The notes below the pieces were generated by a model, which worked only from the letters and a program-made list of their open reading frames with translations, had not been told where the DNA came from and did not search any database. A stretch of DNA of 64,000 nt from Schizochytrium sp. TIO01 (lineage: Eukaryota > Sar > Bigyra > Thraustochytrida > Thraustochytriidae). This document shows positions 3,301 through 33,600 of the stretch, piece after piece (position 1 is the stretch's first letter; each line of letters begins with the position of its first letter). A program made the position numbers and the translations under genes. The stretch covers positions 2,713,048-2,777,047 of the forward strand of contig SMSO01000031.1 in the NCBI GenBank assembly GCA_004764695.1, given 5' to 3'.

Positions 3301-4020
3301 CGAGTACGAAAAAGACACTTGCGAAATGAACTTTATTATAAACAAGACGAACTTGGTACGCCTACAAAAGGTCGTGGCCATGTTCTGAAAGGACAGAGTG
3401 ATTTCACGAGTAGAAGCGATACCGCAACAGCACCAACTCATGCATGGTCTTTTTGTCATTTTAATATTTTTTTAAATCATAAAATGACGACTTGCCTCGG
3501 TTATTTGCCGAGGCTTTCCCCCCCTTTTCTTCTTATTGGAATTTAAGTTATTTTTCTTCGTGTCCTGGTTCTTTCTTCGTTTGACCAGGCTCGGAGCCGG
3601 AGTGCAGCTAACCGAACATGCCATTTGTGCGTTGCTCGTCTCTCCCACCACCGAACAGAAATACCAGACCGGGGATGCAGATAGTAGGTAGAGATCTTCA
3701 AGCTTGCCCAAAGTGCTGGTTCTATTGAAGATCAATCAATCTTATTAGAATAGGAAGCAAGCACTAGTACCTAATAGTACCTACTAGTACAGAGACCTTG
3801 TTAATCCTTAATAGGGCAAAGTGGCACGCGGTGACCTTGACCTTGCGAAGTGGAGCCTTCATCAGCAAACCTTGAAACTCAAGCTTTCTGTGTTCGGATA
3901 GCTGCCCCCCCCCCCCTTCCCTTACGGTGATTAAGTTGCAAAGATTGCAAGGGCTGGCTTGAGCCATCTACGATTATAGGTCGCACGCCTCGACGTCAAT
4001 AGACTCGTTGAGGAAAGGAG
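255..4020. other. Intergenic region without a convincing gene
   Basis: About 3.8 kb. Short open frames occur on both strands but none has recognisable motifs or a consistent codon pattern. The longest ATG-started one (1754-1990, 78 codons) is Asn/Ser-rich and looks like chance. The region contains many ACCTA/TAGTA words (around 380-405, 2180, 2955, 3765-3790) and a C12 homopolymer at 3905-3916. The last part should hold the promoter of the transporter starting at 4021. Confidence 0.5.
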
Positions 4021-5433
4021 ATGTCGCGAGCCAAAGAGTTTTTACAACATTCCAAGTCCGTGCTACGTCAGCGAGCCCACGATGTTTCTTTGCAAGAGGC
4101 CTCAGGTTCCCTTGGAGATCTAGGCACATTTTTGCCTCTTCTATTAAGTTTGGCAGCCTTTAAAGCAGTCTCTTTCGCTCCTGCGCTTTTCTGGGCTGGA
4201 CTTTACAATATGCTAACTGGGTTTCTGTGGAACTCGCCAATGCCCGTGCAGCCAATGAAGACAATTACAGCAGTGGTAGTGGCGTCAGGTGACACGAGCA
4301 TTCCAGGACTATCACCTGAAGAAACCATTGGCGCTGGTATCTCTGTAGCCGTTCTTGTTGTTATTCTTGGCGTTACAGGTCTTATCAATGTAGTCAACTT
4401 TATCGTACCACTCCCGGTTGTTAGGGGCCTACAGCTGGGCCTCGGCCTCGGAATGATGAAGAGCGGTCTTACAATGATCACGAAGCTCACTACAGCCTCT
4501 GAAGTGGACTGTGTTCTGCTTGCAGTCTTCTCAGCTCTAGGCGTTCTTGCAATGCATGCTTGGAATCTGGAAAATCGAGCTCCAACTGCCCTCATCCTCT
4601 CCATTATGGGGCTCATCATTGCAGCCGTAGAGGCCCGCCGATCAGACGGCACAGAAGTTGTCTTTCAGCCAGGCTGGCCTCCTTATATTGCTGTGGAATC
4701 CCTTACATGGAGTGATGTTTGGAATGGATTTTTGAAGGCTGGTCTTGCCCAGCTCCCGCTCACAACTCTGAACAGTATTGTATCTGTATGTGACTTGAAC
4801 AACAAGAAACTTTTCCCTGACGATGCCACAAAATACATCTCTCTACGCTCTGTGGCCTCCAGTGTAGGCTTCATGAACCTCTCAGGCCTCTGGTTTGGTG
4901 CCATGCCCATGTGCCACGGCGCAGGTGGGCTTGCAGCTCAGCACAGTTTTGGAGCCCGTACTGGAGCAGCCATTATTATTCTCGGTACAGTGAAAATGAT
5001 TCTTGCTATTCTTCTTGACAACAGTGCAGAGACGCTTTTGACTTTCTTTCCTAAGTCTATTTTGGGTGTTTTGCTGATGTTTGCTGGCCTGACACTTAGC
5101 TTAGCTGGACTTGATCTGTCTGGCCTTCCAGTTATTGCCAATCAAAGGCCCCATGATCCCAAAATTATTCTACTGGCAACTGCGGTGGTCACTCTTACGC
5201 TGAAGACTGGCTGGGGATTTCTCGCTGGTATTATTGTGTCTGTCTTTCACCATGGATTCGACCATGTTATTGAGTTTGTTAAACAGCGCTGGGAAGCTCG
5301 TAAGCACCGGAACCACGCCCAATCAGTATCGCGAGCTGAATCTTCCTCGAATGATGTAACAACTACTTTACCTGTTGAAAGAGAAAACCAAACAGCAGCT
5401 GTTCAAAGTGAAGATTCACTTTCTCGAGTCTAA
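4021..5433 (+). CDS. MOT1: MOT1-family molybdate transporter
   Basis: 470 residues, one exon, start ATG at 4021. The protein is strongly hydrophobic with about ten membrane segments. It carries the MOT1 hallmarks: GSLGDLGTFLP at residues 29-39 before the first helix, MPVQPMK at 74-80, and PMCHGAGGLA near 295-304 followed by a Phe-Gly-Ala-Arg-Thr-Gly segment. These are the conserved signatures of the MFS_MOT1 / sulfate-permease-like molybdate transporter family of plants, algae and oomycetes. It lacks the C-terminal STAS domain of true SulP sulfate transporters. The last 45 residues form a hydrophilic Ser/Asn/Glu-rich tail, presumably cytosolic. The family imports molybdate with high affinity for molybdenum-cofactor synthesis; plasma-membrane versus organellar location cannot be told. 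No close gene partner is visible. Confidence 0.93.
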   Translation: MSRAKEFLQHSKSVLRQRAHDVSLQEASGSLGDLGTFLPLLLSLAAFKAVSFAPALFWAGLYNMLTGFLWNSPMPVQPMKTITAVVVASGDTSIPGLSPEETIGAGISVAVLVVILGVTGLINVVNFIVPLPVVRGLQLGLGLGMMKSGLTMITKLTTASEVDCVLLAVFSALGVLAMHAWNLENRAPTALILSIMGLIIAAVEARRSDGTEVVFQPGWPPYIAVESLTWSDVWNGFLKAGLAQLPLTTLNSIVSVCDLNNKKLFPDDATKYISLRSVASSVGFMNLSGLWFGAMPMCHGAGGLAAQHSFGARTGAAIIILGTVKMILAILLDNSAETLLTFFPKSILGVLLMFAGLTLSLAGLDLSGLPVIANQRPHDPKIILLATAVVTLTLKTGWGFLAGIIVSVFHHGFDHVIEFVKQRWEARKHRNHAQSVSRAESSSNDVTTTLPVERENQTAAVQSEDSLSRV

Positions 5434-13029: not shown

Positions 13030-16000
13030 TTAGACAATCTGCATTTCAATATCTTCTTGGTTGTTTTGCATTCGAGAATGCTCTTGGTTCGTCTTTTCTA
13101 CAGAAACGGCACCTCCTATCGAGGTTGTCTCACTTCTCTTTGCGGCTCGTCGAGATATGACTGAAGTTGGTCGATACGGCGGACCCCTAGTTTTGTCACC
13201 TCTTGTACTACTCTTCGACAAAACTTTAGATGGTCCAGACTCATATTCGACGCGGTTGTCATTCTGCACATTGATAACTGAGGATGATGTTTCCTCAATG
13301 GACTTGACGGAATCAGCCACAGATGTATCCGCGTGGGAACCCGAGGACAACTTGGGTGGAGTAAGTTCCGCATGATACCGTGAAAGTACTGAAGAACTTC
13401 GTCGAACCCGGAGAGATGAAAGCTTCTCATTTATCGGCGTGGTTATGTGTCCAATTGGTTTGGGGGGCTCTGCCGCCTGAAGTAGAGTCATGCCTGGATT
13501 ATCTAATTCAACTTTCTCCGTCGTTTGATTTACATAAACATCCACACCATGACGAAAGTGCATGTGGTCTTTCAAAGCTTTACACCACCGCACCTGCTCC
13601 TCAGGTGATGTTGCAAAGGTCAAGGACTGCAGCTTTTCTGTGTGCTTGCGATCCCAAAACTTAATCGTTACTAACTTGGAGGCAGACCCCTGGACTTCGG
13701 CAACACGAGACAGTTTTATAGAGCGAAGTTTTCCAGCATAATGATGAGCGCCATCTTTGGCTTTCACCATTGTCTCAAAAATAGCCAGCTCGTCTCTTTC
13801 CGGAAATAACGTGCCATAAACACTGCTTTTGTCGACCTCAAGACGGACCCAGCCTTCGCAAGCTACACGATAACCTACTGCGCCGGATAAAGTACCAACA
13901 ATAAGGCCTTGGACTCCCGATACAGAGGTTACCGAGGTACCAGAGGAAGAGCATGTCGATACACTTGGTTCTTCGTCAATAACCATGCCTGGGAGGCTAC
14001 TTGCAATGCTGTCCGTGGACACCCCACTCTGAGGGCTCTTTACAGATTGAGGAGAAGACATTAATTTGTACAGAAGACCTGTAGATTTTGACGCATTTGG
14101 TGAAGCGATGGATGCCAGCTCAATGACAACGCGTTCATCCTTGTTAGGCTTCGTGTTATTCTGTACAGAACGTCCACATTGTAAACGTGCGCCGGTACTC
14201 TCCGCAATAGCTTCAGCCCACTCCATAGCGGCATGCTGCGTGTCGCACATGAACTCGACACGTTGAAGACCCATGGAGCGGTCACGAGGCTGGTTTCGAG
14301 CATAGCGATGACGCACGTGCGGGTAGTCTAGAGCATCAACTGCTTCCTCATCAAGAGAAGAACGCGTGCTCATACCGTCTTCGATATCAGCATACCCATG
14401 TTGAGCTTCCCGCTCTTGCAGGCGATACAGTAAGTCAAATCGCCACCCCCCATGTTTTGCTGATTTCTTCCCTTTAACCAAGACAGCCTCTACATGGCGT
14501 AAGTTAAGTCGGCCAAGCTCTTGTGGCCTTAGCAGGTGAGATTTGGAGTTTCCCTCTGACCATGCTTCAGTATCATTGTTATAGTAAAATATATCAAGAC
14601 CTTGTTTTGAAGCGTACCAGTGTTGCCAAATTTGTTGACCATTATAACCATTCTCAGAACGCTTCCATAACCAACCGAAGGGGAATCCTTTCTTTGCATT
14701 CTGCATGGAAGATAATTTAAGTGGGTTCAAACTTGGACCAAAACGAGCACTGTTGTTCATAAGCAATTGAAGATTTGTTTCGTCACGTATTTGCCTATAC
14801 TTGTGACGAGCATAGCCAACCAAGGCGCTCGTTAAACAACATGTGAAAAGAAGACCAAATATGAAGCCTGGCCAAAATACACTCTTCTTCACGATCTGAG
14901 TGATGGTATTAGTGGCGCCACTCGTGTCGTCGTCTGAAGAATCTGCCATGTTTGATATTGGGATCCACTGTGTAGGTATGCAAGTCCCTTGAGATGTCAT
15001 ACGTGCGTCCCCACTACACTCTGTACATGCCTCTCCGGAGTACCCAGCTTGGCAAACACAGCGCCCTAGCCCTGTGTGACATACCCCGTGCCCTGAACAA
15101 TTCAAAGGACACCACAAAACAGCTTCGGGTAAAACGCAGTCTGATGGGCAACAACCTTTATCTGTGCAGCGTTCTCCAACTTCGCAGACGTCGTTGCCAC
15201 AATAACCGACAGCCAAAGTCGTGGCACTAGACACGTTGAGAACAGACTTAAGAACAGTTGTCCAGGTGCTCTGATTCGAGATTCGAAGCCAAGGCATCAT
15301 ACTCGATGGAGCAAGCTCAACTTTTGCGTTGACAGTCAGGATATCGCCAGATAATGATCCTTCATTGCTGAGAATCCGTCTCTCCTTAGTAGTTGTGGTA
15401 CTCACTTCAGCTGAGATGAGCGACCACGACACATTTCGTGGCATATTTGTTGTTAATTCCTCGATAAGAGATACTTCAACATCCAAACGTTGCTGGTCTT
15501 CGCGAAGCGACGCCTCGAGAGTACTTGAATACAAGCCAATAATGCTAACAGAAGCAGAACAGGAGCTGCCAGTTCCGTCGCATATACCACAACGATCTAG
15601 CAGTCCGCTCAAGCAGCACAAACCTTCAGCATCGAGCAAAGTTTCGCAGCATTTGCCCTGAGCATCAATTGTAATCCCAGCGCCATTGCAAGTTCCACAT
15701 GCATCGATACTGCCACTTGCGCAGCAGCTTCCTTCAAAATCAAGTACGCCAGTCGAACAGCATGTACCTTGAGCAGTTAATGTGGCACTTGACAAATCAC
15801 AGCAACCACCGTTGATGTCCAGTACTTGTTCATCCCCTATACATATAGTTTCGTTAGTAGTTTCAGAGCAATCTTCGCCGGACCAGCCTTTATCACAAAC
15901 ACAAGTTGAAGCAGCCGCATTGTCACATCTCCCATGAGGACCACAGTTGGTTTGACATGTTTCCACACAGCTCGAAGAACAAGTTTGTACAGCGTACGGC

Positions 16001-19000
16001 TTTGTCAAATTTGCGCAAGCAAGGTCAGCGGTAACTTCTCCATAGCGATTTACGCACAGAACATCTCGTTCTTGCTGCATTAAGGAGCAAGAACCAACAA
16101 TATCAACAGTTGTTGCTGTGCAATTCCTCCATGCACCGATACTCCAATAATACCAGACACCAATTGATCTGTAAGGCAATTGGCTAGTGGAAGATATCAC
16201 CGTTCCAGGAACACATGCTTGCGTTAAATTTGGGCGACTTGTGGAGCTACAAGTAGAAGATGATTCACCTGTTGAATATGTAATACATTCTGCGCTTCGC
16301 TGTGCTATATTTGTCGTGCGGTCGCAAACCCAGTCACTGACTGACCAAACATCTGTACACAAAGAAGTAGACAGAATATCTGATGAGAGTGTTGATACGC
16401 TATCGCATTTTGGTGTTCCTAGTAGATAGCCTGAAGCTCTCTCAAAGCACATATTGGGCGCGCTACGATACCATACAGGAGAGCATGAATTTGACGATGC
16501 TCCCGTCACGACGCTCATGAAACGCATTGTGGCGTCTAAGCATCCGGTGCTACAAATTTGTGTTGTTTCAGGAGTTGCACTGCTACAGCGAGATGTACTA
16601 ACTATAGAGCTACCTGCATCAATACAGTTTACAGTTCTAGTTCGTTCAGTACCACAAATTTGAGAAGCACAGAAAGCAGCTTGATCAAGATCTTCACCTA
16701 AGCTCCATGAACTTACATTCCAGTGAGTGGAAAGGCTACTGCACTCTTCTACCTGTTCAGAGGTACAAGGAATTTTCGATACAGGAAGGGGTGAAAATTT
16801 AAGGCACTTAGAAATATCATGCTCAATTTCCATCCAAGCATAGCTTTCGCTCCCATAGGATGCAAAGGCAGCTCCAATCCCGTAACCAACGCAACGAACA
16901 TTTCTATTTTGCTGAGGTTCTGATGAGCAATCACAGTCATTTGAACTGATGGATTCAAAATGATACGGTAAGACAACCTCAATTTGGTCTGACTGTGTTG
17001 TAGTCTGAGTGTCTGCCCCTATGACTACCTGTAGATTCCCAAGACCTGGTTCAGTTCGTTCATCTACTGCCCACTGGTATAAAACTTGTTTCTCATCTGA
17101 GCTCGAGCTAGAACCTTGCAATTTTTCCAGTGTAGTTGAGATTACTGTGGTAGATGTTTCGTTTAAGCTGTTTGCCACATTTTCAAAAGAGAGGCGGACT
17201 GGTGTTGAGCCACCTCCCGGAAGGTAGCCCTTGACAGTGATGATTACAAGGTGCTCATAGTAGCCTCCTTTAATGAAAGGAGCCAAAACTGGAGCTACTG
17301 GACTAATAAATGTCACATCTAGAACATTGAGATATGTACGTATTGTTGTTGTTGCGCCGTCATTGTCAGTTACAGCAAGAACAAAGGCATACAGACCAAC
17401 AACAGGCTCAGTTACGCGAACGATTGAGGTGTTGCTACCAACCAGAGCAACACTCTCTGCAGCCTCTACTGAGCCATCAACAGAAGCAAGCGACCAACGA
17501 TAGCTTACAATCGATCCACCTGAGTCAATATCATAAGATGCTCTGCCATCGAGTTGTGCTGGGTAGCTTTCAAGACTCACCGTTGCATTTGGAGCCACGG
17601 CTACTGGGGCAGTATTGACAACAACTGTCACCTCATCAGAATTTGTACACCCATAAGCTCCTGTGACTGTAAGTCGAAAAATATATTCCCCGGCGACAGT
17701 CATTCCAAGCACCCCAGTTGTTCCATTAGTCGGCGAGGTGAGTTGCACACGGCCTGATTCAAGTGTAGGATGAGACACAACTTCCCACGAATACTTGATT
17801 GCATTCTTTGAAGCAGATGCATACAATTGCGTATATGTCCTTGGTAGAGTCACAGAGTGTCGAGGTGAGGACCCTGCGGCATCTGCTGCCGCAGTTGGGC
17901 CTTCATTGACATCTAGCCTAGCAGCTGAAGATCTGTATGCACCAGCTACATTGGTGGCAATGAAGGCATAGTAGCCTTCATTCGAATTATCCGGATCAGC
18001 AATTTTGAATATAGGATCTGTGGTTTGCCACGCTGCAGTTGAAGTGAATATTGAACTAGCCTCAGAGTATGTTGAACTAAAGTACCAAGCATAATGGATT
18101 GGAGATGTCCCAGAAATATTCACCTCTTGTTCAAATACATTTCCTGGGCATGCAGTCCGCAAAGTGTCAGGCCAGGTACTCGCATCTTCTAAAGTCGGAA
18201 CCTTTGTCACATTAACGTCAATTGCCACTGAACTGGTCATGCCCAGACTATTGCTGACTACACAATAATAGGAACCTGCGGCTGAATTATGAATATCATT
18301 AAGAAGCAATATACATGGTACATTTGCTTCCGTACAATTCGAAGGAGTTTGACGATACGCGTCACCATCAATAATCACAGCTTGTGTTATATCGGATGAC
18401 TCTTCATACTTGTACCATTGAAATGTCAAAGGCTCTAGTCCAGAAGCTACAACGCTAAGTGAAAGATCGTCACCTGGATTTGTCTCAACGCTAGTGTTTG
18501 TGGCTTTAGGTTCTTGCTCTGTGATTCGTGGTGAATCGAAGACTCCGAGACTAGCCCATCTTGACTGTGCGCAGTCTGCTTCGTTGCAGGCATTGCATGA
18601 ATATAAACCCTCGTCCACATTACTAGAGTTTATGATAGTCATCACAATGTCACTAAGCCCAGCGTTGGTTTGATAAGTTCCAATAGCATCACTAAACATA
18701 GACGAGTTCCTCATTTCAATTGCTTCAATATCTGCGCCGAGGGACTCGGTGTAGTACCAAGTTACTGTGAAAGGTGGTGTTCCAGAAGTAAGCTCACATT
18801 GGAAGGAGCTATTATACGTAGGTAAGCGTGTCATGTCCTCAGGTGTACTAGCATTGATGATCGGAGGAAGAACAACAGTAACTTCAAGAGCTTCCGAAAT
18901 AGCACCTTGAGGTTTCGCCGAATTTTTAACTCTACAGGTATAAGAACCAGTATGAGTAGTACTCACAGCATCCGTAATCAATAGCTGTGACGTGTAATCA

Positions 19001-22000
19001 TCCTCGGAGCTAAGAGCGTAACTAGATGTCCCCGAAACGTTGTCTGTAGCTGCGTCTTCCAATACATCTAGTGCAGATCCGTCTTTAAGCCACGTGAATG
19101 TTAAAGGTGTTGAACCAGAACCTTTGCAAATCAATTGAGCCGTGCCACCCGTCAAAATACGACCATCAGTTGGCACCATCGTTACCGAGTCTATCTGTGC
19201 AGGTGCATTCACAGCAATTGTAATAGGAATAGACGTATCACTTCCAAGTCGATTGGAGACGCGTACGAAAATAGATCCTTCCTCACTGGGTGCGAATTTG
19301 AAACTTGGGGAATTCCCAGTCTGGCTTACAGCACCATTCAGGTACCATGTGTAATTTAAGGGCGCGATACCTGAAGCTAGAACTGTTAGATTTACCTGTT
19401 GCAACGGATCGACAGTCAATGAACCACCTTCAGCAATGGGTGACATACTTAAAATTGTAGGTGGATCGCGAACTGACAACTTTCCAACAGTTTTAGAAGC
19501 TGAGCCAGCCGAATTGGTGGCATAGCATATATAGATTCCTTCATCATTCTGGCTCACATTGGTCAGAGCTAAAGTAAAACCGGTTTGGCCGGATACAATA
19601 GTACTACTTGTTGAAGAGGAGCTGGATTTATGCCTCCAGGTGACGGACTTAACAGCAGGATCCGCAGTTACATTGCACGAAAAGGATACGTTTGCGCCAG
19701 GGTCTACAGTTTTGGTCACTTCGCTGGAAATAATTACGGGGGGATCATTTACTGTTACGCTTACAAAGTCGCTCGATACATTTCCAAGATAATTTTCGAC
19801 GGAAAGTAAATAAACCCCTTGCTCTGATTCTTTAATGTCTTGAATCTGTAGAATGCTTTCAAAATAGGCCAGTGATGTTACATTTTCTTGCATCACCACA
19901 TCTGAGCCACCAACCCCTCGACGATACCACTTGTAAGTCATTGGAGGCGCTCCTGATACTGTGCACGAGAGTGTTGCCGTCTTGGACGGATCAGCTGTTA
20001 CATTGATTGGCTGGTTAATGATTTCTGGTGCTCGCGCAATGTGAAGGTTGGCAGCATCACTTAGCACACCTGTCACGGAATTCAGATGATTTGTTGCTCG
20101 GCAGTCATAACTTCCTTCATCCGCAGTCGTAACATTGAGCAGTACTAGCGTGCTGAGGGTGGCACTAGCACTGTCAATGTCTATCCCATCTTTTCGCCAC
20201 TGATACGACATTGGCGTTGCGCCAGCCACTACTACAGTAAAACTAACATTCGAATTCGGCTCAGCAAAAACGTCCAAAGGACTCAAAACAATAGTGGGCG
20301 GGTCATTCACGTCAAGACGCATGGCACTTGATATTGCCTCCCCTATGTCACTTAAAACTTGGCAATAGTAGTTTCCCTCATCGCTTGTTGCTACATTGGA
20401 GATTACCAACTGACTGCTGGTATCATCTGAAGTCACCGCTCCTTTCTCAACTTCCGTGAGATTCCCAGAGTCATTGTCACCATCTTGAAGCCATGTGAAA
20501 GAAAGGGGACCAGTTCCATTAGCCTCGCACTTTAGTGTTATCGTGCCACCAGGATCAACTTTCTTAGTTGTGTTGGAGGTAGGGGAAACTATTTGAGGAG
20601 GATCATTCACGGTTAGCATAACATTCACAGACTGAGTAACATTCAGATAATTGTACACAGTTACCGAATAAAGTCCCTCATTTACTTCTTCTGCTGCTTC
20701 AAATGTAAGGTTGGCCAGTGTATAATTATTTTCACTTATATAATCACCGTCCTTCATCCACAGATATGCCAGAGGCCTTGCTCCAATTGCCTCTACAGTA
20801 AACACTGCTCGCTCTCCCGGATTTACAGTTAGAGATTGAGGCTGGGTTATGATAATCGGAGGTGTGTTGACAACAATCTCGAGACTCTCACTTTCCGCTG
20901 ATCCTGCTCCATTAGTGGCAACGCATGTATAATCACCAGCATGCTGCGTTGCAGTAATATTAGTGAAAACGTGAGTTTGCGCTTCAGACACAACAACACC
21001 ATTCAGCTCAATTGCATAAGTAACATTTTCTCCAACCGAGTCGCATGCAAGTGTAAAGTTTTCAGTTGAACTTTCATTTACACCGTTTTCTAAAACGCTC
21101 GCGGGGCTTACAGAGATTGTTACATTCGATGGAATATCCATGATATCTAGATATGTCGCATTAGAGGTGGCATTGTTGACCATATTTCCTACTATACATC
21201 GGTAGTTTCCCTGATCTGCCTCTGTCAAGTTATTAATATTGAGCTTGAAGTATGTTGCATCAATCTCGTTTCCAGAAGTCGCAGCTGCTCTAGAGTATTG
21301 TGTCCATGTAGTTGAGCCTTCGACCTGTCTCTCCCAGTATACTTCCATAGGAAAGGAGCCTGTAGCCGAGCACAAAAGTGACGTATTCAGGCCTGGTACA
21401 CCTATTGTTGGCTTTGGATCAGATGCAATAACCACTGGATTATAGACATTAACGAATGCTGTGTTGCTCCTCACCGATGATACCTTATTGGAGGCAATAC
21501 ATGTATAGTTTCCTTGATCTGTTTCTGCAACACTTGAGTATCTTAGAACAGCATCAGTTGACGTTAAAGTCGTGTTTCCAAACATCCATCTATACGTAAT
21601 GGGAGTGGATCCAGACGCAGTACAATTCAGCACTATATTTTCTCCAGGAATTAAATCAAGGTTTGTTAGGTTTTGGTCTATCGTAGGGGCAAATAAAACT
21701 TCAATAGACTTTGTTGCACATGCTGCTAGTCCTAAGCTGTCCGTAACTCGAAGACTGTATTCGAAAGTCCCGGGAACACCTAGGCTACTGATCTTTGTAG
21801 TTGCGGAGTTTGGAGAAGAAATTTGACCTGCACTTGACGAAGCTCCACTAGGACTATCTACCAGAGTCCACAAGTATGAAGATATTGTTGAGCCATATAG
21901 TGCCTTTGAAGCAGATCCTGTCAGCTCAACTTGACTAGCTGGGTATGCCACACTCGTGGTGGAGTTTCCAACATCAATTTGAGGTAGACCAGCGTCTACA

Positions 22001-23706
22001 TACACGAGCTGAGTTCCAATGACGACGGACGTGTCAGTGGAAGCACTAGCCTCAAACACGTAGCGACCTCTCTGGCTCAATGTTAACGGAAGAAGATATC
22101 CACCATCTACTGATTCCGAACTGGGGAGATCTGACGGAATTCGAGCTACTTCTGTCCAGCTTACAGTCTGGCTCCGCCAAGACTCCCCAAGATCTAATAG
22201 AAAGATATGTTCTACAGTCAAAGTAGCATTTGTTCCAGTTAGTAGCTCACTTGTCGAAGGACCCGCAGTAAGACTAAAGTTACACATGGGAGTAACATAT
22301 AGCTCTTCACTACTTAAATCGAAATTGTCTGGGCAATTACCATCGAGCCCGACAATCCACTCATATTCGTTTCCTGAGCTGGATGCCGAAAGTGTGACTG
22401 ATGCATCACTCAAATCCAACGATGCCAAAGAATCTGCCAGAGCTTTTGCTGAAGCTGTGACGGGGACTATAGTGGACGAATTTGAGTTTTCTAGCATTAT
22501 TTGGAAGCTGCCATCGAGCAAAGAAAGACCAACTGTTGTGGTGACGGTTTTAAGTGTTAGCCCAGGTGTCGCTGAGCTAGATAGCCACGGTGTGAGCAAG
22601 GGCATGTCTCCAGCTTCGCCGAATGTCACTTTCCATGTCCAACCGCTGGAAGACTTTGTTACCACAAGCTGAAGGCCAATATCGGTTAGACTACGCAAAG
22701 CAGCTTGCACTTGATTAGCTGATGAACTTAGATTAAGCGAAGTGGAATTTTCGTCCTCAAAGCCAAGAGAAAAAGAGCCTGTAAAACTTGAACGGTTGTT
22801 TGCTGTTGCATATGTAGATCCAATACTCGCACCAAGTACGATAGTTTCTGCCGAAGCTCCAATATCAGAGCCACCAAGGTTTGTTGAATTCACACGTGCC
22901 TGCGCACCAACCACCCCTTCAGCTAGAACAACTCTGTATACATAGCCCGCGGGTTCGCTGGTGACTGTACGAACCACACTTTCTACTGAGTCTTCGCCAA
23001 GAGCATTTTCAAAAGCTGTTCTTAAAGCATTTGCATTTGCATTGTAATTTAGTGTAGTTTTTGGAAGAGACCAAGAACAACCCCAAACTGTTCCGGTTGG
23101 GCCGTTTATTGTTGGGCCTGTATAATCCTGGTCCAGCTGAATGACTGAAGAATAGCAACCATCACATTCACTAAATGAAACGCGATATGTCTGCCGATCT
23201 TGCCCAGAAACAGATGAATTTTTCGATACACGAACAGGGTATCCTTCATATACGCCAGCTTCCTGCCATACTTGAGTTGTGTCTTCATTATTAGACACAA
23301 ATACACTGATTTGATTCGCGCTATTTGGTACTGGAGCATAATATACTGTGCCTGGCAATTGTACATCGAATTGGCAAAATTCAAGGTCCCATGTGCCACG
23401 AGATGCATTGATAGATATATCGATTACCTGGTGACTCCAAAGACGTACTTCTTGAATTTCTTTCACATTTTCAGTAGCACTACCCTCGGCTTTTATACGA
23501 TATGTATTTGTTGGTCTCTGAATAATACGTTGCGCAAATAAACTCCCATTATAAGTTTCGTCAGAACAGTATTCGGCTGAGTATGAGCTCGCAAATGTTC
23601 GATCAATGCAAGAACTCATAAGGACGATGGTGAATAAACTCAAAATGATGAATAACGATGAGTTATGCTGGCCCAGAATTACTCTTCTCATATTTGATTT
23701 CTTCAT
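13030..23706 (-). CDS. Giant single-pass membrane protein with PKD, Ig-like, TSP1/EGF-like and two PH-like domains
   Basis: 3558 residues in a single 10.7-kb exon, start ATG at 23706. Order: signal peptide (about 1-40); three repeats of roughly 90 residues (about 190-500) ending in a Trp-x-Val-x-Phe-like strand; one PKD-like domain (about 565-665); thirteen Ig-like domains (about 672-1935), most with the Asp/Glu-x-Gly-x-Tyr signature before strand F; two PKD-like domains (about 1940-2150); a Cys/Trp/Ser-rich TSP1-like region (about 2249-2560); EGF-like CxxxCxxxGxC modules (about 2582-2612 and 2867-2898) flanking repeated 'CGxCxGxG' Cys motifs; one membrane helix (about 2942-2965); and two PH-like domains (about 3007-3171 and 3282-3384), each ending in a Trp-containing helix. 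Many NxS/T sites lie in the ectodomain. It probably acts at the cell surface in adhesion or sensing, with the tail binding phosphoinositides; that role is inferred. No kinase or phosphatase domain is seen. Confidence 0.88.
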   Translation of the reverse strand: MKKSNMRRVILGQHNSSLFIILSLFTIVLMSSCIDRTFASSYSAEYCSDETYNGSLFAQRIIQRPTNTYRIKAEGSATENVKEIQEVRLWSHQVIDISINASRGTWDLEFCQFDVQLPGTVYYAPVPNSANQISVFVSNNEDTTQVWQEAGVYEGYPVRVSKNSSVSGQDRQTYRVSFSECDGCYSSVIQLDQDYTGPTINGPTGTVWGCSWSLPKTTLNYNANANALRTAFENALGEDSVESVVRTVTSEPAGYVYRVVLAEGVVGAQARVNSTNLGGSDIGASAETIVLGASIGSTYATANNRSSFTGSFSLGFEDENSTSLNLSSSANQVQAALRSLTDIGLQLVVTKSSSGWTWKVTFGEAGDMPLLTPWLSSSATPGLTLKTVTTTVGLSLLDGSFQIMLENSNSSTIVPVTASAKALADSLASLDLSDASVTLSASSSGNEYEWIVGLDGNCPDNFDLSSEELYVTPMCNFSLTAGPSTSELLTGTNATLTVEHIFLLDLGESWRSQTVSWTEVARIPSDLPSSESVDGGYLLPLTLSQRGRYVFEASASTDTSVVIGTQLVYVDAGLPQIDVGNSTTSVAYPASQVELTGSASKALYGSTISSYLWTLVDSPSGASSSAGQISSPNSATTKISSLGVPGTFEYSLRVTDSLGLAACATKSIEVLFAPTIDQNLTNLDLIPGENIVLNCTASGSTPITYRWMFGNTTLTSTDAVLRYSSVAETDQGNYTCIASNKVSSVRSNTAFVNVYNPVVIASDPKPTIGVPGLNTSLLCSATGSFPMEVYWERQVEGSTTWTQYSRAAATSGNEIDATYFKLNINNLTEADQGNYRCIVGNMVNNATSNATYLDIMDIPSNVTISVSPASVLENGVNESSTENFTLACDSVGENVTYAIELNGVVVSEAQTHVFTNITATQHAGDYTCVATNGAGSAESESLEIVVNTPPIIITQPQSLTVNPGERAVFTVEAIGARPLAYLWMKDGDYISENNYTLANLTFEAAEEVNEGLYSVTVYNYLNVTQSVNVMLTVNDPPQIVSPTSNTTKKVDPGGTITLKCEANGTGPLSFTWLQDGDNDSGNLTEVEKGAVTSDDTSSQLVISNVATSDEGNYYCQVLSDIGEAISSAMRLDVNDPPTIVLSPLDVFAEPNSNVSFTVVVAGATPMSYQWRKDGIDIDSASATLSTLVLLNVTTADEGSYDCRATNHLNSVTGVLSDAANLHIARAPEIINQPINVTADPSKTATLSCTVSGAPPMTYKWYRRGVGGSDVVMQENVTSLAYFESILQIQDIKESEQGVYLLSVENYLGNVSSDFVSVTVNDPPVIISSEVTKTVDPGANVSFSCNVTADPAVKSVTWRHKSSSSSTSSTIVSGQTGFTLALTNVSQNDEGIYICYATNSAGSASKTVGKLSVRDPPTILSMSPIAEGGSLTVDPLQQVNLTVLASGIAPLNYTWYLNGAVSQTGNSPSFKFAPSEEGSIFVRVSNRLGSDTSIPITIAVNAPAQIDSVTMVPTDGRILTGGTAQLICKGSGSTPLTFTWLKDGSALDVLEDAATDNVSGTSSYALSSEDDYTSQLLITDAVSTTHTGSYTCRVKNSAKPQGAISEALEVTVVLPPIINASTPEDMTRLPTYNSSFQCELTSGTPPFTVTWYYTESLGADIEAIEMRNSSMFSDAIGTYQTNAGLSDIVMTIINSSNVDEGLYSCNACNEADCAQSRWASLGVFDSPRITEQEPKATNTSVETNPGDDLSLSVVASGLEPLTFQWYKYEESSDITQAVIIDGDAYRQTPSNCTEANVPCILLLNDIHNSAAGSYYCVVSNSLGMTSSVAIDVNVTKVPTLEDASTWPDTLRTACPGNVFEQEVNISGTSPIHYAWYFSSTYSEASSIFTSTAAWQTTDPIFKIADPDNSNEGYYAFIATNVAGAYRSSAARLDVNEGPTAAADAAGSSPRHSVTLPRTYTQLYASASKNAIKYSWEVVSHPTLESGRVQLTSPTNGTTGVLGMTVAGEYIFRLTVTGAYGCTNSDEVTVVVNTAPVAVAPNATVSLESYPAQLDGRASYDIDSGGSIVSYRWSLASVDGSVEAAESVALVGSNTSIVRVTEPVVGLYAFVLAVTDNDGATTTIRTYLNVLDVTFISPVAPVLAPFIKGGYYEHLVIITVKGYLPGGGSTPVRLSFENVANSLNETSTTVISTTLEKLQGSSSSSDEKQVLYQWAVDERTEPGLGNLQVVIGADTQTTTQSDQIEVVLPYHFESISSNDCDCSSEPQQNRNVRCVGYGIGAAFASYGSESYAWMEIEHDISKCLKFSPLPVSKIPCTSEQVEECSSLSTHWNVSSWSLGEDLDQAAFCASQICGTERTRTVNCIDAGSSIVSTSRCSSATPETTQICSTGCLDATMRFMSVVTGASSNSCSPVWYRSAPNMCFERASGYLLGTPKCDSVSTLSSDILSTSLCTDVWSVSDWVCDRTTNIAQRSAECITYSTGESSSTCSSTSRPNLTQACVPGTVISSTSQLPYRSIGVWYYWSIGAWRNCTATTVDIVGSCSLMQQERDVLCVNRYGEVTADLACANLTKPYAVQTCSSSCVETCQTNCGPHGRCDNAAASTCVCDKGWSGEDCSETTNETICIGDEQVLDINGGCCDLSSATLTAQGTCCSTGVLDFEGSCCASGSIDACGTCNGAGITIDAQGKCCETLLDAEGLCCLSGLLDRCGICDGTGSSCSASVSIIGLYSSTLEASLREDQQRLDVEVSLIEELTTNMPRNVSWSLISAEVSTTTTKERRILSNEGSLSGDILTVNAKVELAPSSMMPWLRISNQSTWTTVLKSVLNVSSATTLAVGYCGNDVCEVGERCTDKGCCPSDCVLPEAVLWCPLNCSGHGVCHTGLGRCVCQAGYSGEACTECSGDARMTSQGTCIPTQWIPISNMADSSDDDTSGATNTITQIVKKSVFWPGFIFGLLFTCCLTSALVGYARHKYRQIRDETNLQLLMNNSARFGPSLNPLKLSSMQNAKKGFPFGWLWKRSENGYNGQQIWQHWYASKQGLDIFYYNNDTEAWSEGNSKSHLLRPQELGRLNLRHVEAVLVKGKKSAKHGGWRFDLLYRLQEREAQHGYADIEDGMSTRSSLDEEAVDALDYPHVRHRYARNQPRDRSMGLQRVEFMCDTQHAAMEWAEAIAESTGARLQCGRSVQNNTKPNKDERVVIELASIASPNASKSTGLLYKLMSSPQSVKSPQSGVSTDSIASSLPGMVIDEEPSVSTCSSSGTSVTSVSGVQGLIVGTLSGAVGYRVACEGWVRLEVDKSSVYGTLFPERDELAIFETMVKAKDGAHHYAGKLRSIKLSRVAEVQGSASKLVTIKFWDRKHTEKLQSLTFATSPEEQVRWCKALKDHMHFRHGVDVYVNQTTEKVELDNPGMTLLQAAEPPKPIGHITTPINEKLSSLRVRRSSSVLSRYHAELTPPKLSSGSHADTSVADSVKSIEETSSSVINVQNDNRVEYESGPSKVLSKSSTRGDKTRGPPYRPTSVISRRAAKRSETTSIGGAVSVEKTNQEHSRMQNNQEDIEMQIV

Positions 23707-24629: not shown

Positions 24630-27600
24630 CTACTCTAGCCCAGAAAATGCTTGAGCGTCATGCTCATCAAAGTCTTCCATTGTATTACAATTGTTCGCCG
24701 CGTATAGAAGTTTCTCATAACAGACCTCCTTACTTGAGTATTCTGGTAGTCCAAGTGTGAAAAAACATGTCTGACTCTGCGGTAGCATACCATCAGAAGA
24801 TGCCATAGCTTTACCATCTGCTTCCTCATCATTGTCTTGCTTTCGTATCAGAGGGATGATCTTGAAGCTCATGGGAAATTTATCCACAGATGAAGGAAGG
24901 CGGGAACGTGCACAAACAAAATTGACGAACTTGGACCTTTCTTCCTGAGTCATGTCTTCTAAAGCACGCCAAAAGTTAACAACGTGAGGAGCCTCTGGGT
25001 CTACATCCTCGTAGATTGTGGCACGTTTCAGTAATTCAATATCAATCTCTGGTGCACCACAAATAAGCTTTTCCAGCTCCTCTGGAGTAAATAAAATGAA
25101 GTTTCTGGTGGGCAAGATCTCTTCTAAGCCTTGCATAAAAGTTGTAACAGGAGCAGCAGCAGTTAGAACAGATTGTCGAACAATCTCTTCGACAACAGTG
25201 AACCGAGCTTCAAACGGAATCTTACTAGGTTTCCCGTGATGTGTAATCACTGACCCGGCCGGTAAATTATGTTTCGCATCACCTAACCGATCAAGTAAAA
25301 GCTCGCTCCATGCGGCGTCTTCATCATCCCATTGCTCGCGAGAAAGAGACTCAATCTGCCTGAGAGAGCGGGTGGTAAAACTATCAATTTCATGGAGTTC
25401 GCGCCATCCAATAGGAAGTCCCACTAATGGTCTCCAAATAATATGTGCTAAACAAAGGCCAATATGAATACTATGTCTTGTCGCAACGCCTAATAGTCTT
25501 CCCAGAAATTTGATACATCGTTCACTTCCTGCCGCACCACTTGGCCATTTAGCCTCCCCATCTGACCTGCCTGAACATTTTCTACTTGTAAAGGTGCCAG
25601 AAGAGATTTTATTGCCAGTATTCTGTACTTCTTCATCCTCTTCGTCTTCCAATTGATGGCGGAGAGGTGTAAAAACCATCCTATCTGCATTTGCAAGAGC
25701 ACCATCTGCAGCATTAGGACAGGGTACAAGAATTTGGAGAGGGCCTGCTGCTTCTTCCTCGATTGCAATTTGAAAAACTGCGCGGTAAGGACCTCCATGG
25801 TCATCAACTCCTTCGCTTTCAAATTTAACAAAGAAACAGCGTTGCTGAGTTGCATCTTGAATGTGAGAGTATGCACGACGAAGCTTTCGAGCAGGCCAGC
25901 TTTCCATCCCTGTTTTGACCATGATTTGCCCAAACACGGACGTCTGCAAACGATCATGCTCTTCCAGAGCTGCAAGACGCTGGTCTCCTGCAATAATTCG
26001 ATTCACTCGGACTGATGGAAAATCTGGGGGTGCATCGTATTCGTCAGCAGCCGGAATGGTAGGAGTAGTAGTCCGCGCAATGCAAGCATTCCAGTATTCG
26101 AGTTTCGTCCTGGTAAATATTAGCGAACGGCCGTAGGCTAAGAGGCCTGCAACTTGCATTTTGCGGCACGCTAATCTACTCTGCTCCCCATCGCCACTCC
26201 GGTGATCAGAGGCAAATACTATCTGTCCTGGGTCCGAGACAGTGGTCTCTAAATTTACAAGCTCGAATATTTTTCGGATGCGAATGTTGATAGTCAACAA
26301 TATAATAAATCGAGCAATGAGGCGCTGAGGGCCAAGGCCTATCAATCGGCGCATGGTTTGGCTTGCTGTTTCGGCATGCTGCATCTCTTTCACTAAGCTA
26401 ATAAGCTGCAAGTGCTCAGGCTCGCAAGCGTATCTATCACACAGAACATTCACAACTAGTACAAGCTCCCGATCTAGGGCATCTGTCCATACATCATTAC
26501 GTCCCTGAAGAGCATTGACCAAGTCGTCAGGTGTAAACGTGGAAGGGAGCATGCTATGAGCTTCTTTCATAGTTTGTAATTCCTTATGTTGATCATCTTC
26601 AAGCCATACCTTTTTGTCTTTGACAAGTGAGCGCAACTCAGCAGGAGGCCAAAATAAAGCTTCGTCTGAGCCGTCAACGCAGTACCATAAGGCGCCATTT
26701 CTGGCTCCTAATATTGTCACTGGCCCCCGGGGCGAGTTCAAGCGATCGCCTACTTGAACATTCCCAAGACTAGCAACCGAGGCAGCTGCACAAGCACCTG
26801 CGCTAATATGAATGTGCACTGGAATACGACCTAACGACCACACAGTTCGCATTGAGCCAATTGAGTCATTTGTATTCTCCCAAACTGAAAACAACTCATC
26901 TCTCCACGTAAGCGGGATCTCGTCCGCCGAAGGACGAGGTGCGAGAATCTCACGGAACATGTTGACGGTTTGAGAATATTCGAAAACCATCGAGGCCTCT
27001 GGTTCTTCATTGTACTCAAGAGATCGCGTCTTTTCCATCGTTATTTTATCATGAACCTTTGACATTCCAAAACAGGGATACAATTTGATGTCCTCAGATG
27101 GGATCCGTTTTCTGCGACCCAATCGACACTTTTGGCGTAGTTGGTCGTAAGCTAGTCCAAGATCAACAATGACCTGCTTATCTCCACTCTGGTAATCCTG
27201 GAAATCCTTGAAAAAGTAAAGGCGTCCGCGGTCCATGTCAAGAAGAACGCCTACAACGTCGTTTACAGCATAGAAAGAACCATACAGTTGCTCGCCATCA
27301 GGGCTGTGGGTAGCACGATAGTTAACAAAACCAAAACCGTCACCCCAGCCTTCGCCGCGTGCTTCATTACCTGGCCGCAGGCGTGGCGAGTCATCTTGCG
27401 ACGGGTGTCGATCAGTCACTCCAATAAGGGTGCTACCCCATTGCATACCCATCACCCGGGCCTCCCAGTAGTGCATCCCCCGAGAGTAGCCCTCTGCTCC
27501 CAGCACATGAGACCTTTTCCCAGCATCTGGGCCAACGCCAACGTACTCAGCACTTAGACAGTCCGCAGAGACATGAATTCCTGGGCCTGCAGTAGTAGGG

Positions 27601-30600
27601 TCCAATCTCACAAGTTGGTGTGAGGAGAACGCAAACTTGCCTTGCATGTCAAATAAGTTATCAGCCTGCGATTCTTGTTGTTGATTCTTTGACTCGTCAG
27701 AAGCGTCTTTTAAAGAAAATTTAGTAAAGTTCTCAGGAGGCACTGTTGTGGCTTTAGTTGTTGAAGATGCAATTCCCTTTTCGAAAAACTCATACTTAAC
27801 TTCACTCGCAGAACGAGATGTCACTTTACACCACCCTTCCAAAAGTCCATCAACCCAGTTTCCTTCAAAAACGGTCCCAGAAGCCTCTTTAAGAATGCCT
27901 GGACCAGATCGACGGCCGAGCTTCCAAGAACCGTCAAATCGGACAAGAGAACCTGATTCACTTCGGTTAGTGTACCTCTTCAGTTCAGAAAAGTGCACTG
28001 TGCCTTGTCCGTGTTTCAAGCCAAGGCAAAGGATAGAGACATTCGCGCGAGCTGATATTGCAATTGCGGGAAAAAGAGCATTATCAAAAAGACACTCGGT
28101 ACCTCGCCGCAAGGCACTGCGATCGCACAAAGCAACTTCTTTGTCGTTAATGAATATAGACACGCGTCCATGGTCTGAATCTAGTTCCAGCGATATTTTA
28201 TCCCCGTCACGGAGAGGGTCTTTCAGCAATGCTTTATTGCGCCCTTTAAACCATGACAACCCACTCGACGAGATGCCCCAAGAATGTTCCGTTGCGCCGA
28301 GATGGTCGCGTAGCGGTGTACCCTTTGCACAAAGTCCAAACGAGACGTCATCCCGCTGCAATGACCCTGCTGACCCTTTCACTTGGAATTCCCACATGTA
28401 AACACCACTGTTGGGTTCCCAAACTCCTTCAGCATCGAGGGTAAACAATGCAGCCTCGACATCACCGCCCTGACTATTATTTGATTGATCAGGGTTTGGA
28501 GTGGTGCAGATAGCACAACACGAATGGTCTAGTTGATTTAAGAAAGTACAGGCCGGACATGCCCAGGTAGCAGGCTCCATTGCATGAGGCATACTATCGT
28601 TCTCCAGGGATTGCTCTTCAGCCTCGTCGTTGTTCGAGCTACTTTGCAAAACTGGATACCAACGGCCAGTTTCAAGAATAACTGTACTCCACGTTGAAAC
28701 TGTAGGCCGCTGGTCAAGCACAAATGGAGGAAACGTACTTTGCAGATGCAAGATGTCGCATGTTGCTCGGATAAGTTGCCCTTCTTCATCAAGACTGAGG
28801 TAAGCTGGAGCAGAACGAGCGACCGCCCGCATCGTGGGTGCGTCTTCAGAAAGCACATGCCAGTGCGGGAGCTTTCTTGAAGTTTTCCAAGTCCCCTCCA
28901 ACTCGCCATTGGATTCATGGCCCTCAAACATTAAGTTTGAAAGCCAACGACGGCTTTCGTTCTCAGCAAGAACCACTTGAGTGACGTAAATCTCAAAGTT
29001 ATGTGAGGAAGCATCTATATGGCCTTCAACCTTACACCAGACATTTTTATCATGTTCAGTACACTCAAAGTGGCCCACAAGTTTGCAATCGCCAGTCAAG
29101 CGAAGATACAGGTGCATAGGAAGGTGAGCAGTTTGGAAATCCATAGGTACCGCGACTTGCCTCAATAGGGATATTTCCTCGAGATCCCAAAGGATTACCC
29201 CTGAGAACTTTGTTTTAGAAATAAGGTAATGAAGCGATGGTTCTATCCGTTCGTATAGAGCTGTCTGCAACTTTAGGGACCCAGTGTCTGATTCAGATTG
29301 TTTTGAAAGACAACTTTCATGATCTTCTGAAAACGATGTTATCCGAGCACCAGAGCGAAGTATACCTACATGCTTGTGATGCAGTGCCTCAATGAGCATA
29401 TGCACAGATGACAATATCTCCTTCGGGGGTTTAACATGGGGAGAATCGTTGCATTCAGTATCTGTATTCAAAACATTATTGCTCAAAGAATTTGTATCAT
29501 GGGTGAAGTCCCAGTAAGAATAAAGTTCACTCAGGGCAAGGATGGGCTCCGCCGTTTCACACTCCATACCGGGTCTCTCTGTTTTTATGGTTTGCACATT
29601 GCTACCAAGAGATAGAAGGTGCCTACTTATCTCCTTCGCCTGCTCCCCACTCATGGCACGTTTCCAAAGGCAAAGTCGACCAATTGAACCATCAAATGAA
29701 GCTCCGACTGGGCTGCCAACTTCACGAATACCAAGAGCGCTTTGCGATGACTTGGAACAGATGGAGCCCCGAAGGACATCATTTTCATAAGCAAGGATGT
29801 GAACAATTTCCTGAGTCTGGATGTTTGACCTCAACCCTGGTCTGGGCTTTGAACGAGCAGTGCGCTGATAAAGGCTCTTGGGTGTTGTGCGCTCTTTACT
29901 ATGCGATATTTTATGAAATTGAAGATAGGCTTCTACACCCATCGTGTTCATCTGGAACACCCCATCTGACAAATAACTCTCAACATCATCTTCGTCATGC
30001 GTCCAATTGGATTCTGCCTCTGCGTTGTCATCTCCCACTTCACTTTCGTCTTCAGTGCTATATTCTTCACCCTCAGCGTCCAAAGTGGAATAACTGTCTT
30101 TCTTGTATCCCTTTAGATTTTTCTGGCTTCCACCTTTTTCATCTGTTTTAGGCATGCAACCCATATGATGATGCAAAAACATCTTATTCATCGCATCGGT
30201 TTCTGGATAGTCTGCACATACTAGAGTGAGTTTCGTCCAAGGTTGCACTTCTTCGCCTTCTTTAGGTGCTGGCAATGTGAACCCAAAGCTGGAAATCTTC
30301 CCATCGCTGAAACGAATACCAAGCTTATTGGACGTTAAAATAATCTGCAATGAAGATGAACTAGATGAATCACCAAGAATAATGCGCGGTTCTGCTCCTA
30401 ATTCAGAGTGCTGATTATCCTTTCCAGGTGGGTGCCGGATCCAAAAACTAGCTGTCCAGGGAGGTTGGAGTGAATCCAAGGCTTCTCCATTCACGTCTCT
30501 GAGCTCCATAAATCCAGACTGAGTCAGCTCTAATTGCGAGGATTTCATTGCCGTAGTTTCAGAAGGCAACAATGCCTTATACTGTTCGACTTTAGCGACA

Positions 30601-33600
30601 AATTGAAGTAGTTCTTTACAAAAGAGCGAAGGCCCGGGGCTTGCCCCATCCCTTCGTCGTAAAAGACGATTAATCAGAGCAAGTAATCGAGACCATGGGA
30701 GAGCCTGTATCATAGTGTATAAACTGTTAATACGAGTGGCACCATTTTCAATGGATGCTGCCGCATCCAGGAAATCGGAGAGCATACTAAGTGCAGATAT
30801 TTTAATACGAACAGAGGGCGAACGAAGAGCCAAGAGCCAGGTCGTGAAAAGGGTCAAATGTAACTCACTTCCTAAAGGAGCCACGCTCAGAAGCTGGCGC
30901 GTTGCCCAGTCTACAAACCATAGCATTGACTCACTGCTTTCCACTGCAGAGAATGAATCATCGCGAACCTGCTGAGTATCAGCTGAAAACTCTGCTGATG
31001 CAGCCCTTCTTAGAGTTTGCTTCACGCATAATAGAAGCTCCGCGACGAAACTTTTACTTCGTGATATACACGTGGACGAGAATTCATAAATACTTTTAGG
31101 AATATTCCAAAGGCAAGCCTTTGCATCGCCTGTAATAGAACGTAGGCAATCATGTGCATAAAGGGGGAATTTTTGGAAGCTTTCTGAAACAAGAAGTTGA
31201 ACTAACTTTGCACGCTGTGTTTCGTTTATGAAAGCGTTAAAGGAGCCTCCTTCGACGATCAGGATACGAAGGATAACTACTCTAGCTTGCAAAACGCTGA
31301 GAACCTCTGCTAAATAACGAAACTCCTCATAAAGGTCTGCTAGAGAATACTTCTCTAGTAAATGACAATAAGATGCACGTGAGTCAGCACTTGGGCCCCA
31401 GTGTCGCTGAGAGGCGCGCTGTAGCTCTGAGTGCATCCTGTTCTTTTCGTTTCGATACTTGGACCCAGATCGGCGTCCTCCAATATGTACCTTTCCTTCC
31501 AAGCCTTGCCCACGGTTGTCCCAACCTGTATACGATGAAATTGAGCTAGCAGAGGCGAGTTCGTTCTCGTCAACATTACGATCTAGGTTATCCATTTCAA
31601 GGTAGTCATCTTCTCCTGGACAGACATGAGGTGTTTCTTCCTTGTTTCCAGATGATGCAGAGATAGCAGCAGCAGCAGCAGCAGCAGCAGTAGGAGCTGG
31701 ATTCTCAGAACCCCTGCTATCTGTACCGCCAGATTCATTTTGTGCATCGTCTGTAACCCCACTGGTGATTTCACTTCGTGACACCTCCTCTGGTTCATCA
31801 TCGATGCTATAACTAGGTTCCTCTGCCTCTTCTTCACTTTGTTCATCTTGACTCCTTGACATTGCTAGTGCAATTCGCTCATCAAGCAAGTCACCATGTG
31901 TGCAAATATATGAAATCGCTGCTGTGACATCGAGACCATTTCGCTGCAATGCAAACTCTGCCCAGCGGCGGGGGAAACCCATGTCCATTAATGTTAATAC
32001 ACTTTCTGCAGGAACTGCGACTCGCCTCGACGAATTGCTATTTTCTCCAGCCATACGTCTGCTCCGACGAGGTGCAAGGTCAGCTGCAGCGCCGGATTGT
32101 GCTTGATGGTTAGAAGAAAGCTCTATACTATCAAGTGCGATTTCATCTGCGTTAGATTGAATCCCGAGTTCATCAAGAGATTGAACACTTTCTGCGGTCT
32201 TACTTCCATCCTGCATTGTTTGGGACCCTTGCATTGAATTCCGGCCTCGAGAGAGTTCGTCGAGTAGAATGGTGAGTCGCTCTGACAAAACATTCAAATC
32301 TGGGATGCGGAAAAGTGGAATTTTCCTAAAAGCAAGATCGAGCATTACTGAGAGGTTTCTCTCTGGAAAATAACTCAATGTTGCAGACGCTGAGTCTATA
32401 CTTTGCAAGGGTCTGTCTTCTAGATTTTTAGTCTTCTGCGATTTTTGAAAGCTCAAATTAGCCAAGGCTTGAATTCCCAACAGCTGAGCTAAGGCTTTTT
32501 GATAACACAAGGAAGTCTTAACTTGACTTTCCAGTTTGGGGCGAAGAACATAGTCATTTTCAGCATCTTGAATCTTAACCCATGCAGCTTGAGAGAGGGT
32601 TGCATCTTGTTTATCTTCAACGTTATTTTCATGAAAGCTTTCTAATTGAATCCATAGACCCACTCTCTGCGAGGCAGTAACCACAAGGGAAGACTTCTTC
32701 TCTTCTGGATCGAAAAGTGGGTTCAAATTTCCAATGACTGCAGCTGCATCGTCAGGAGCATCCCGTACATTGATTGTCTTAGGGGCTGTCGAAAATAGTT
32801 CGAAGTCGCGTCTCCAAGAGCTTGTTAGCCATGATCCATAAGGCAGTGACTCTTGCGAAAAATGCTGTAAAGCCTTCAACAAACCACTATCTGTATTTAG
32901 ACGAACAGCATTTATATCTTGGCGCAGATAGACATGGTCTGCACCGATATGGATAAGCTGTTTATCAAAATTGATGGTCTTAGTTGAGCGATTCTCAAAG
33001 CGTCGCCAAACCTCAAGTTTTTCTAAATCACTGAGATCTTTTGAACCACCGCTCTGTGTCCATGCAAGCTGATAGAATGCTGAAGAAGTAGTATTCATTT
33101 CAATGATGAAGTGCATAGGGTCAAAAGCATGGACTGGGGCACCAGGCATAAGTTTCAATACTGTTCCTGAAATCACTGCCAAAGCAGCGTTACAAAAAGC
33201 AAATGTTTTGGCTTGCCCCCCATCTAGCTCGCGCCCTGAAGCGTGAGAATCTATCGTTGCCGTATCACCTTCATCCAGGCCGCTGCTAACCGAGGTGGCG
33301 GGAGTTGAAGCTTCGCCCTCTCCTGCAGATGTAAGAATCGCTGAGCCTGCATCAATAGCATGCTCAAGCAGACTATGAATTGTGCTCTTCCAATGCGAGA
33401 ACCTTTGAAGTTTTCTCAATGTCCGAATAGCTTCAATGCTTTGTAGAAGTTTTGACTCCTGCAGAGATGAATTACAGCTTGCATAAAAGCCTCCTGCCGC
33501 GATCTCAAGTAAGAACTCGCCTATATTATGAACCTCGTTATCCTCCAGATGGACTTCGCTAGGATTTATCAAAGGTAGCATGCCGCGAAAGATGCGGAAT

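Follow-up and report, generated by a model that had tools for sequence, protein, structure and literature searches.

A giant single-frame protein of Schizochytrium sp. TIO01 with an Ig/PKD ectodomain and a PH-type cytosolic tail, a candidate surface adhesion or recognition glycoprotein

A stretch of 64,000 nucleotides from the genome of Schizochytrium sp. TIO01 (contig SMSO01000031.1; hereafter the window) was found to carry a gene for a predicted membrane protein of 3558 residues, in which long arrays of Ig-like and PKD domains outside the cell are joined by a cysteine-rich stalk and a single helix to a PH-type tail inside. A surface role in adhesion or sensing would be the best reading of this domain content. 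We propose, with somewhat more confidence than doubt, a giant type I surface glycoprotein for adhesion or recognition, whose extracellular rod is tethered to cytosolic partners.

The open reading frame (ORF) is uninterrupted from 13030 to 23706 (minus strand, as for all coordinates of this protein given below) and comprises 3558 codons from the ATG, corresponding to ~381 kDa without glycosylation. The initial annotation had described a single-exon ORF of about 3.5k residues, and the unbroken frame agrees with this at exactly these coordinates. Between 12500 and 24500 no second ATG-started ORF of at least 150 aa lies beside it. The open frame and paralogues that overlap both ends of the protein in the same order (see below) support the prediction of one gene. 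A second giant single ORF of 5761 aa adjoins it (24630-41915, minus strand); it has ZZ, SPRY and UBA-like matches and a C-terminal HECT match and is a predicted HECT ubiquitin ligase. Further ORFs of the window, all on the plus strand, encode a molybdate transporter (MFS_MOT1, 470 aa, 4021-5433), a protein of 751 aa with C-terminal EF-hand pairs (43872-46127), a protein of 636 aa matching GDP dissociation inhibitors of the Rab GDI/escort type (PF00996, 53161-55071) and an SLC12-type cation-chloride transporter of 1222 aa (58134-61802).

The protein is predicted to be a type I membrane protein with a signal peptide, a single transmembrane helix and an extracellular N terminus. The putative signal peptide covers residues 1-40 (23587..23706), with a hydrophobic segment at 16-34 and a cleavage site placed by inference. 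Besides this segment, one transmembrane stretch stands out by hydrophobicity (residues 2948-2966, within a helix of residues ~2941-2966; 14809..14886), as the single helix of the initial annotation required, and is followed by a basic juxtamembrane stretch with a net charge of +6 over 40 residues. A weak third hydrophobic segment (2095-2113) sits within a PKD domain. Only the outside part is enriched in N-glycosylation sequons (63 versus 36 ± 5 in shuffled sequences; inside, 5 versus 4.2 ± 1.8), which fits the predicted topology. The ectodomain is very acidic (pI 4.3). This acidity, the many sequons and the lack of a recognised ligand-binding domain would also suit a structural coat or scale glycoprotein, with the rod as passive spacer or part of an envelope and the tail as mere anchor, and the Ig and PKD arrays may have a structural role only, for example in a cell coat. 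The PH-like domains and the 550-residue tail exceed what an anchor needs, though, and we consider a coat protein quite unlikely.

The N-terminal head of the mature protein (residues 41-580; 21967..23586) has no recognised fold. It gave nothing above the Pfam cut-off, no PDB match by sequence and no match to viral contigs; internal repeats were spotted in it by eye. The ~540-residue head is, as far as these comparisons reach, novel. It is followed by a first K319L-like PKD domain (residues 584-669; 21700..21957; Pfam E = 1e-11), and two more lie behind the Ig array (residues 1951-2030 and 2039-2127; 17326..17856; Pfam). With the whole protein as query, Pfam returned K319L-like_PKD with E = 2e-27, in three copies, and PKD_4 with E = 2e-6, so that the PKD modules assigned earlier are borne out.

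Between the first and the second PKD domain, residues 674-1919 (17950..21687) form 13 Ig-like repeats, as counted with a profile made from the protein's own repeats. Pfam matched the whole protein with Ig_3 (E = 6e-114, 12 stretches) and I-set (E = 1e-99); the self-profile recovered 13 units, repeats 3 and 9 only partially. The Ig arrays of the initial annotation are thus confirmed. Its designation of the ectodomain as "animal-type" turned out to be too strong. Multi-domain PDB matches were led by DSCAM (E = 3e-37) and titin, in a database rich in animal Ig domains. When two repeats were compared singly with the PDB, a tail protein and an Ig-like domain protein outranked titin and contactin: one repeat matched the Ig-like domain protein with E = 2.6e-25, the tail protein with 5.7e-25 and titin with 6.5e-23, and the other gave 7e-13 and 4e-10 for the top two and 3e-7 for titin. 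Both top product names recur in phage records; the first PDB chain is listed without organism. Further, a tblastn search with a 481-residue Ig stretch revealed arrays of ~30% identity over 96-100% of the query in 211 phage records and of 25-30% identity in seven plasmid records. A search of bacterial genomes with the Ig stretch yielded 24 pattern matches and no relative, in a scan that demands exact short peptides and does not imply absence. No near-match to phage DNA was found. Given the ranking of the single repeats, which match phage/bacterial-type Ig better than solved animal Ig, and the phage arrays at ~30% identity, an animal type is not established, and the ectodomain should not, on present comparisons, be called so.

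The part between the PKD domains and the membrane is a putative stalk rich in cysteine. Residues 2245-2590 (15937..16974) are TSP1-like (PF19030, TSP1_ADAMTS; E = 4e-6, three stretches, with the stalk as sole query), with the best copy at residues 2521-2578 (24.4 bits in the genome scan). An EGF-like module (residues 2584-2615; 15862..15957) carrying a CVCDKGWSGEDC motif scored 21.0 bits with EGF_Teneurin, below the cut-off of 24.3, and a second one (residues 2866-2896; 15019..15111) scored 28.7 bits, above it; over the whole protein EGF_Teneurin matched two stretches with E = 1e-6. TSP1-like and EGF-like modules, both of which had been assigned from the sequence before, are accordingly present. 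Between the two EGF-like modules lie a Cys-rich module with [DN][AR]CGxC motifs (residues 2620-2720; 15547..15849) and a region with the cysteine motif CGNxxCExGE (residues 2834-2862; 15121..15207). Against PDB sequences the stalk gave weak rows only (Reelin, E = 0.014).

Both cysteine motifs recur in two further proteins of the same genome, which was the sole genome covered by the search for relatives (64 Mb, 37 contigs). The first, C34 (ORF of 2341 aa), has both motifs, one transmembrane segment and a PH end that is above the cut-off for PF00169 (39.6 bits); it aligns with the giant protein with E = 4e-16. It has Pro-Thr repeats, K319L-like PKD and one PH-like domain, and no Ig array. The second, C31 (ORF of 1319 aa), likewise has both motifs, one transmembrane segment, no Ig array and one PH-like domain, the latter recognised only by a profile of four rows, which in the PDB matched PH domains best (dynamin-2, E = 0.0055). 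Pairwise BLAST of the PH ends of the three proteins gave no meaningful alignment, and their homology is therefore argued from profile, order and fold. The three proteins are, by predicted architecture, a family with common TSP1/Cys-rich/transmembrane/PH ends and differing heads; in C34 and C31, too, a TSP1-like or Cys-rich stretch is followed by CGNxxCExGE, the transmembrane segment and the PH-type end. Since the stalk-helix-PH end is kept and the outer heads are swapped, the end is probably a coupling device and the head a specificity device.

A third paralogue shares the opposite end. The C3 ORF (1150 aa; L007:657-4109, minus strand) repeats the head together with a single PKD and a pair of Ig domains, followed by several hydrophobic segments; the genome yielded no other relative of this multi-pass end. 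C3 and the giant protein align over 853 residues with 47% identity, from the head through the PKD to the second Ig domain (49% in the head), while four-fold sites are 30% identical, which is near random, and synonymous sites are saturated. The protein identity set against the near-random four-fold sites argues that the head/PKD/two-Ig part was kept by selection. Moreover, the retention of the head on a different, multi-pass anchor suggests that it has a specific function, which speaks against a passive coat protein. Scans of the genome with Ig_3 and I-set revealed at least three Ig-bearing ORFs, namely the giant ORF, C3 and an ORF on C36 (605 aa; L018:562-2379, plus strand), the last with a single Ig domain behind a hydrophobic segment. 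PH domains occur often in the genome, with at least 98 matches; these domain counts are lower bounds. Contig C4 of the genome also encodes a PUFA synthase of the PfaA type, which fits a thraustochytrid.

The cytosolic part had been annotated with two PH-like domains and no enzyme. Indeed, Pfam finds no catalytic domain in the tail. Of the two PH-like domains the second held up well and the first less firmly. PH2 (residues ~3279-3395; 13522..13872) gave no PF00169 row in Pfam and only 13.5 bits with SIN1_PH, below the cut-off. In an AlphaFold2 model of residues 2990-3410 (overall mean pLDDT 48), residues ~3279-3390 form seven strands and a C-terminal helix with a pLDDT of 60-86, and Foldseek with the tail model retrieved PH domains and DH/PH modules (best E = 1.1e-4). 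VIA-align, whose rows take in PH2 and say nothing on PH1, matched it best to the PH domain of ARAP3 (Z 13.0, rmsd 1.7 Å, 92 aligned residues) and also to that of TAPP1 (Z 12.3, rmsd 1.8 over 91). In the predicted structure PH2 is thus confirmed as a PH superfold domain, not as a member of PF00169. PH1 (residues ~3007-3175; 14182..14688) has an insert of ~50 residues before the last strand. Intact, it had no match in Pfam; with the insert removed it scored 22.5 bits with PF00169 (E = 1.7e-4; cut-off 25.1). A separate model of PH1 was of poor quality (mean pLDDT 41), and the Foldseek rows were weak (best E = 0.3), the top ones being mostly PH. PH1 is a probable PH domain. The Ser/Thr-rich C-terminal end (residues 3396-3558; 13033..13521; 24% S+T, net charge +2) is probably disordered.

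If the tail signalled, the initial annotation held, it would do so through lipid binding or adaptors. A signalling receptor of the first kind, in which a ligand outside alters the clustering of the tails and binding of phosphoinositides by the PH domains recruits or orients signalling complexes, would be in keeping with the basic juxtamembrane stretch and with the lipid-binding PH domains of ARAP3, TAPP1 and DAPP1 among the closest structural matches of PH2. The PTB and FERM F3 modules, which bind proteins, share the superfold and are also among the VIA-align matches, and a common fold shows no function. The β1-β2 loop of PH2 is very short, and the K-Xn-[K/R]-X-R motif is absent from PH1 and PH2, although they may bind in a non-canonical way. 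Since neither domain has the canonical 3-phosphoinositide motif, signalling via lipid binding is not indicated by the sequence, and we regard such a receptor as unlikely.

PH domains are frequent in trafficking proteins, which would favour a receptor for the capture of nutrients or particles, with endocytosis directed by the PH-like domains. Pfam recognised no carbohydrate-binding module in the protein, and no endocytic motif was spotted by eye in the tail; we hold a capture receptor to be very unlikely, even though the ectoplasmic net is described as touching and digesting food particles (PMC12221091). For the adhesion or recognition protein that we prefer, the following mode of action is conceivable. 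The head and the β-sandwich rod of Ig and PKD domains would reach outward to attach to a substrate, to a second cell or to a copy of the protein itself. The disulphide-rich TSP1/Cys-rich/EGF stalk and the single helix would hold the protein in the membrane, as the sequence and the paralogues suggest. Inside, PH2 and probably PH1 may act as modules for protein docking or weak membrane apposition and may link the rod with partners in the cortex or in trafficking. A plausible site of action would be substrate attachment at settlement or the ectoplasmic net. Labyrinthulomycetes attach via a unique organelle, and a published protein search, as far as described there, gave only candidates (PMC12221091). 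This settlement proteome of A. limacinum names other candidates for the ectoplasmic net, and its main text is silent on Ig, EGF and PH proteins, which counts against a role in adhesion or in the net (PMC12221091).

Literature searches on thraustochytrid Ig or PH receptors returned no report. A receptor family with a common stalk/helix/PH end and varied heads offers specific targets for tagging and deletion, and it bears on the question whether non-animal lineages evolved Ig adhesion rods independently. We tentatively suggest, though we think it rather doubtful, that a class of adhesion receptors particular to thraustochytrids arose by domain shuffling, in which swappable heads, with Ig rods possibly derived from bacteria or phages, were combined with a stalk, helix and PH-type tail that stayed conserved, as a counterpart of the animal IgCAMs at the cell surface or ectoplasmic net. 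Among non-animal protists, Ig domains have been reported before: Acanthamoeba encodes adhesion-type Ig proteins of the I-set with a weakly predicted transmembrane segment (PMC4053784); the main text of that study gives neither a PH tail nor such a stalk for them. The likeness to the Ig arrays of bacterial and phage tail and decoration proteins is confined to the Ig part, and no relation of the head, stalk, transmembrane helix or PH domains was found. The KIAA0319-like protein (AAVR) is matched in the PKD region by two tandem K319L-like PKD domains (E = 7e-10); no further feature of it was recognised, and the Ig array and the PH tail are extra here. With the animal IgCAMs (DSCAM, contactin, Robo) and the arrays of titin the protein has in common tandem I-set/Ig_3 repeats, and, as in DSCAM and Robo, a type I topology; by prediction, the tandem Ig/I-set domains lie outside and are combined with a signal peptide and a single transmembrane helix. 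Unlike the IgCAMs, the Schizochytrium protein adds PKD and TSP1 modules, a novel head and cytosolic PH-like domains to this plan.
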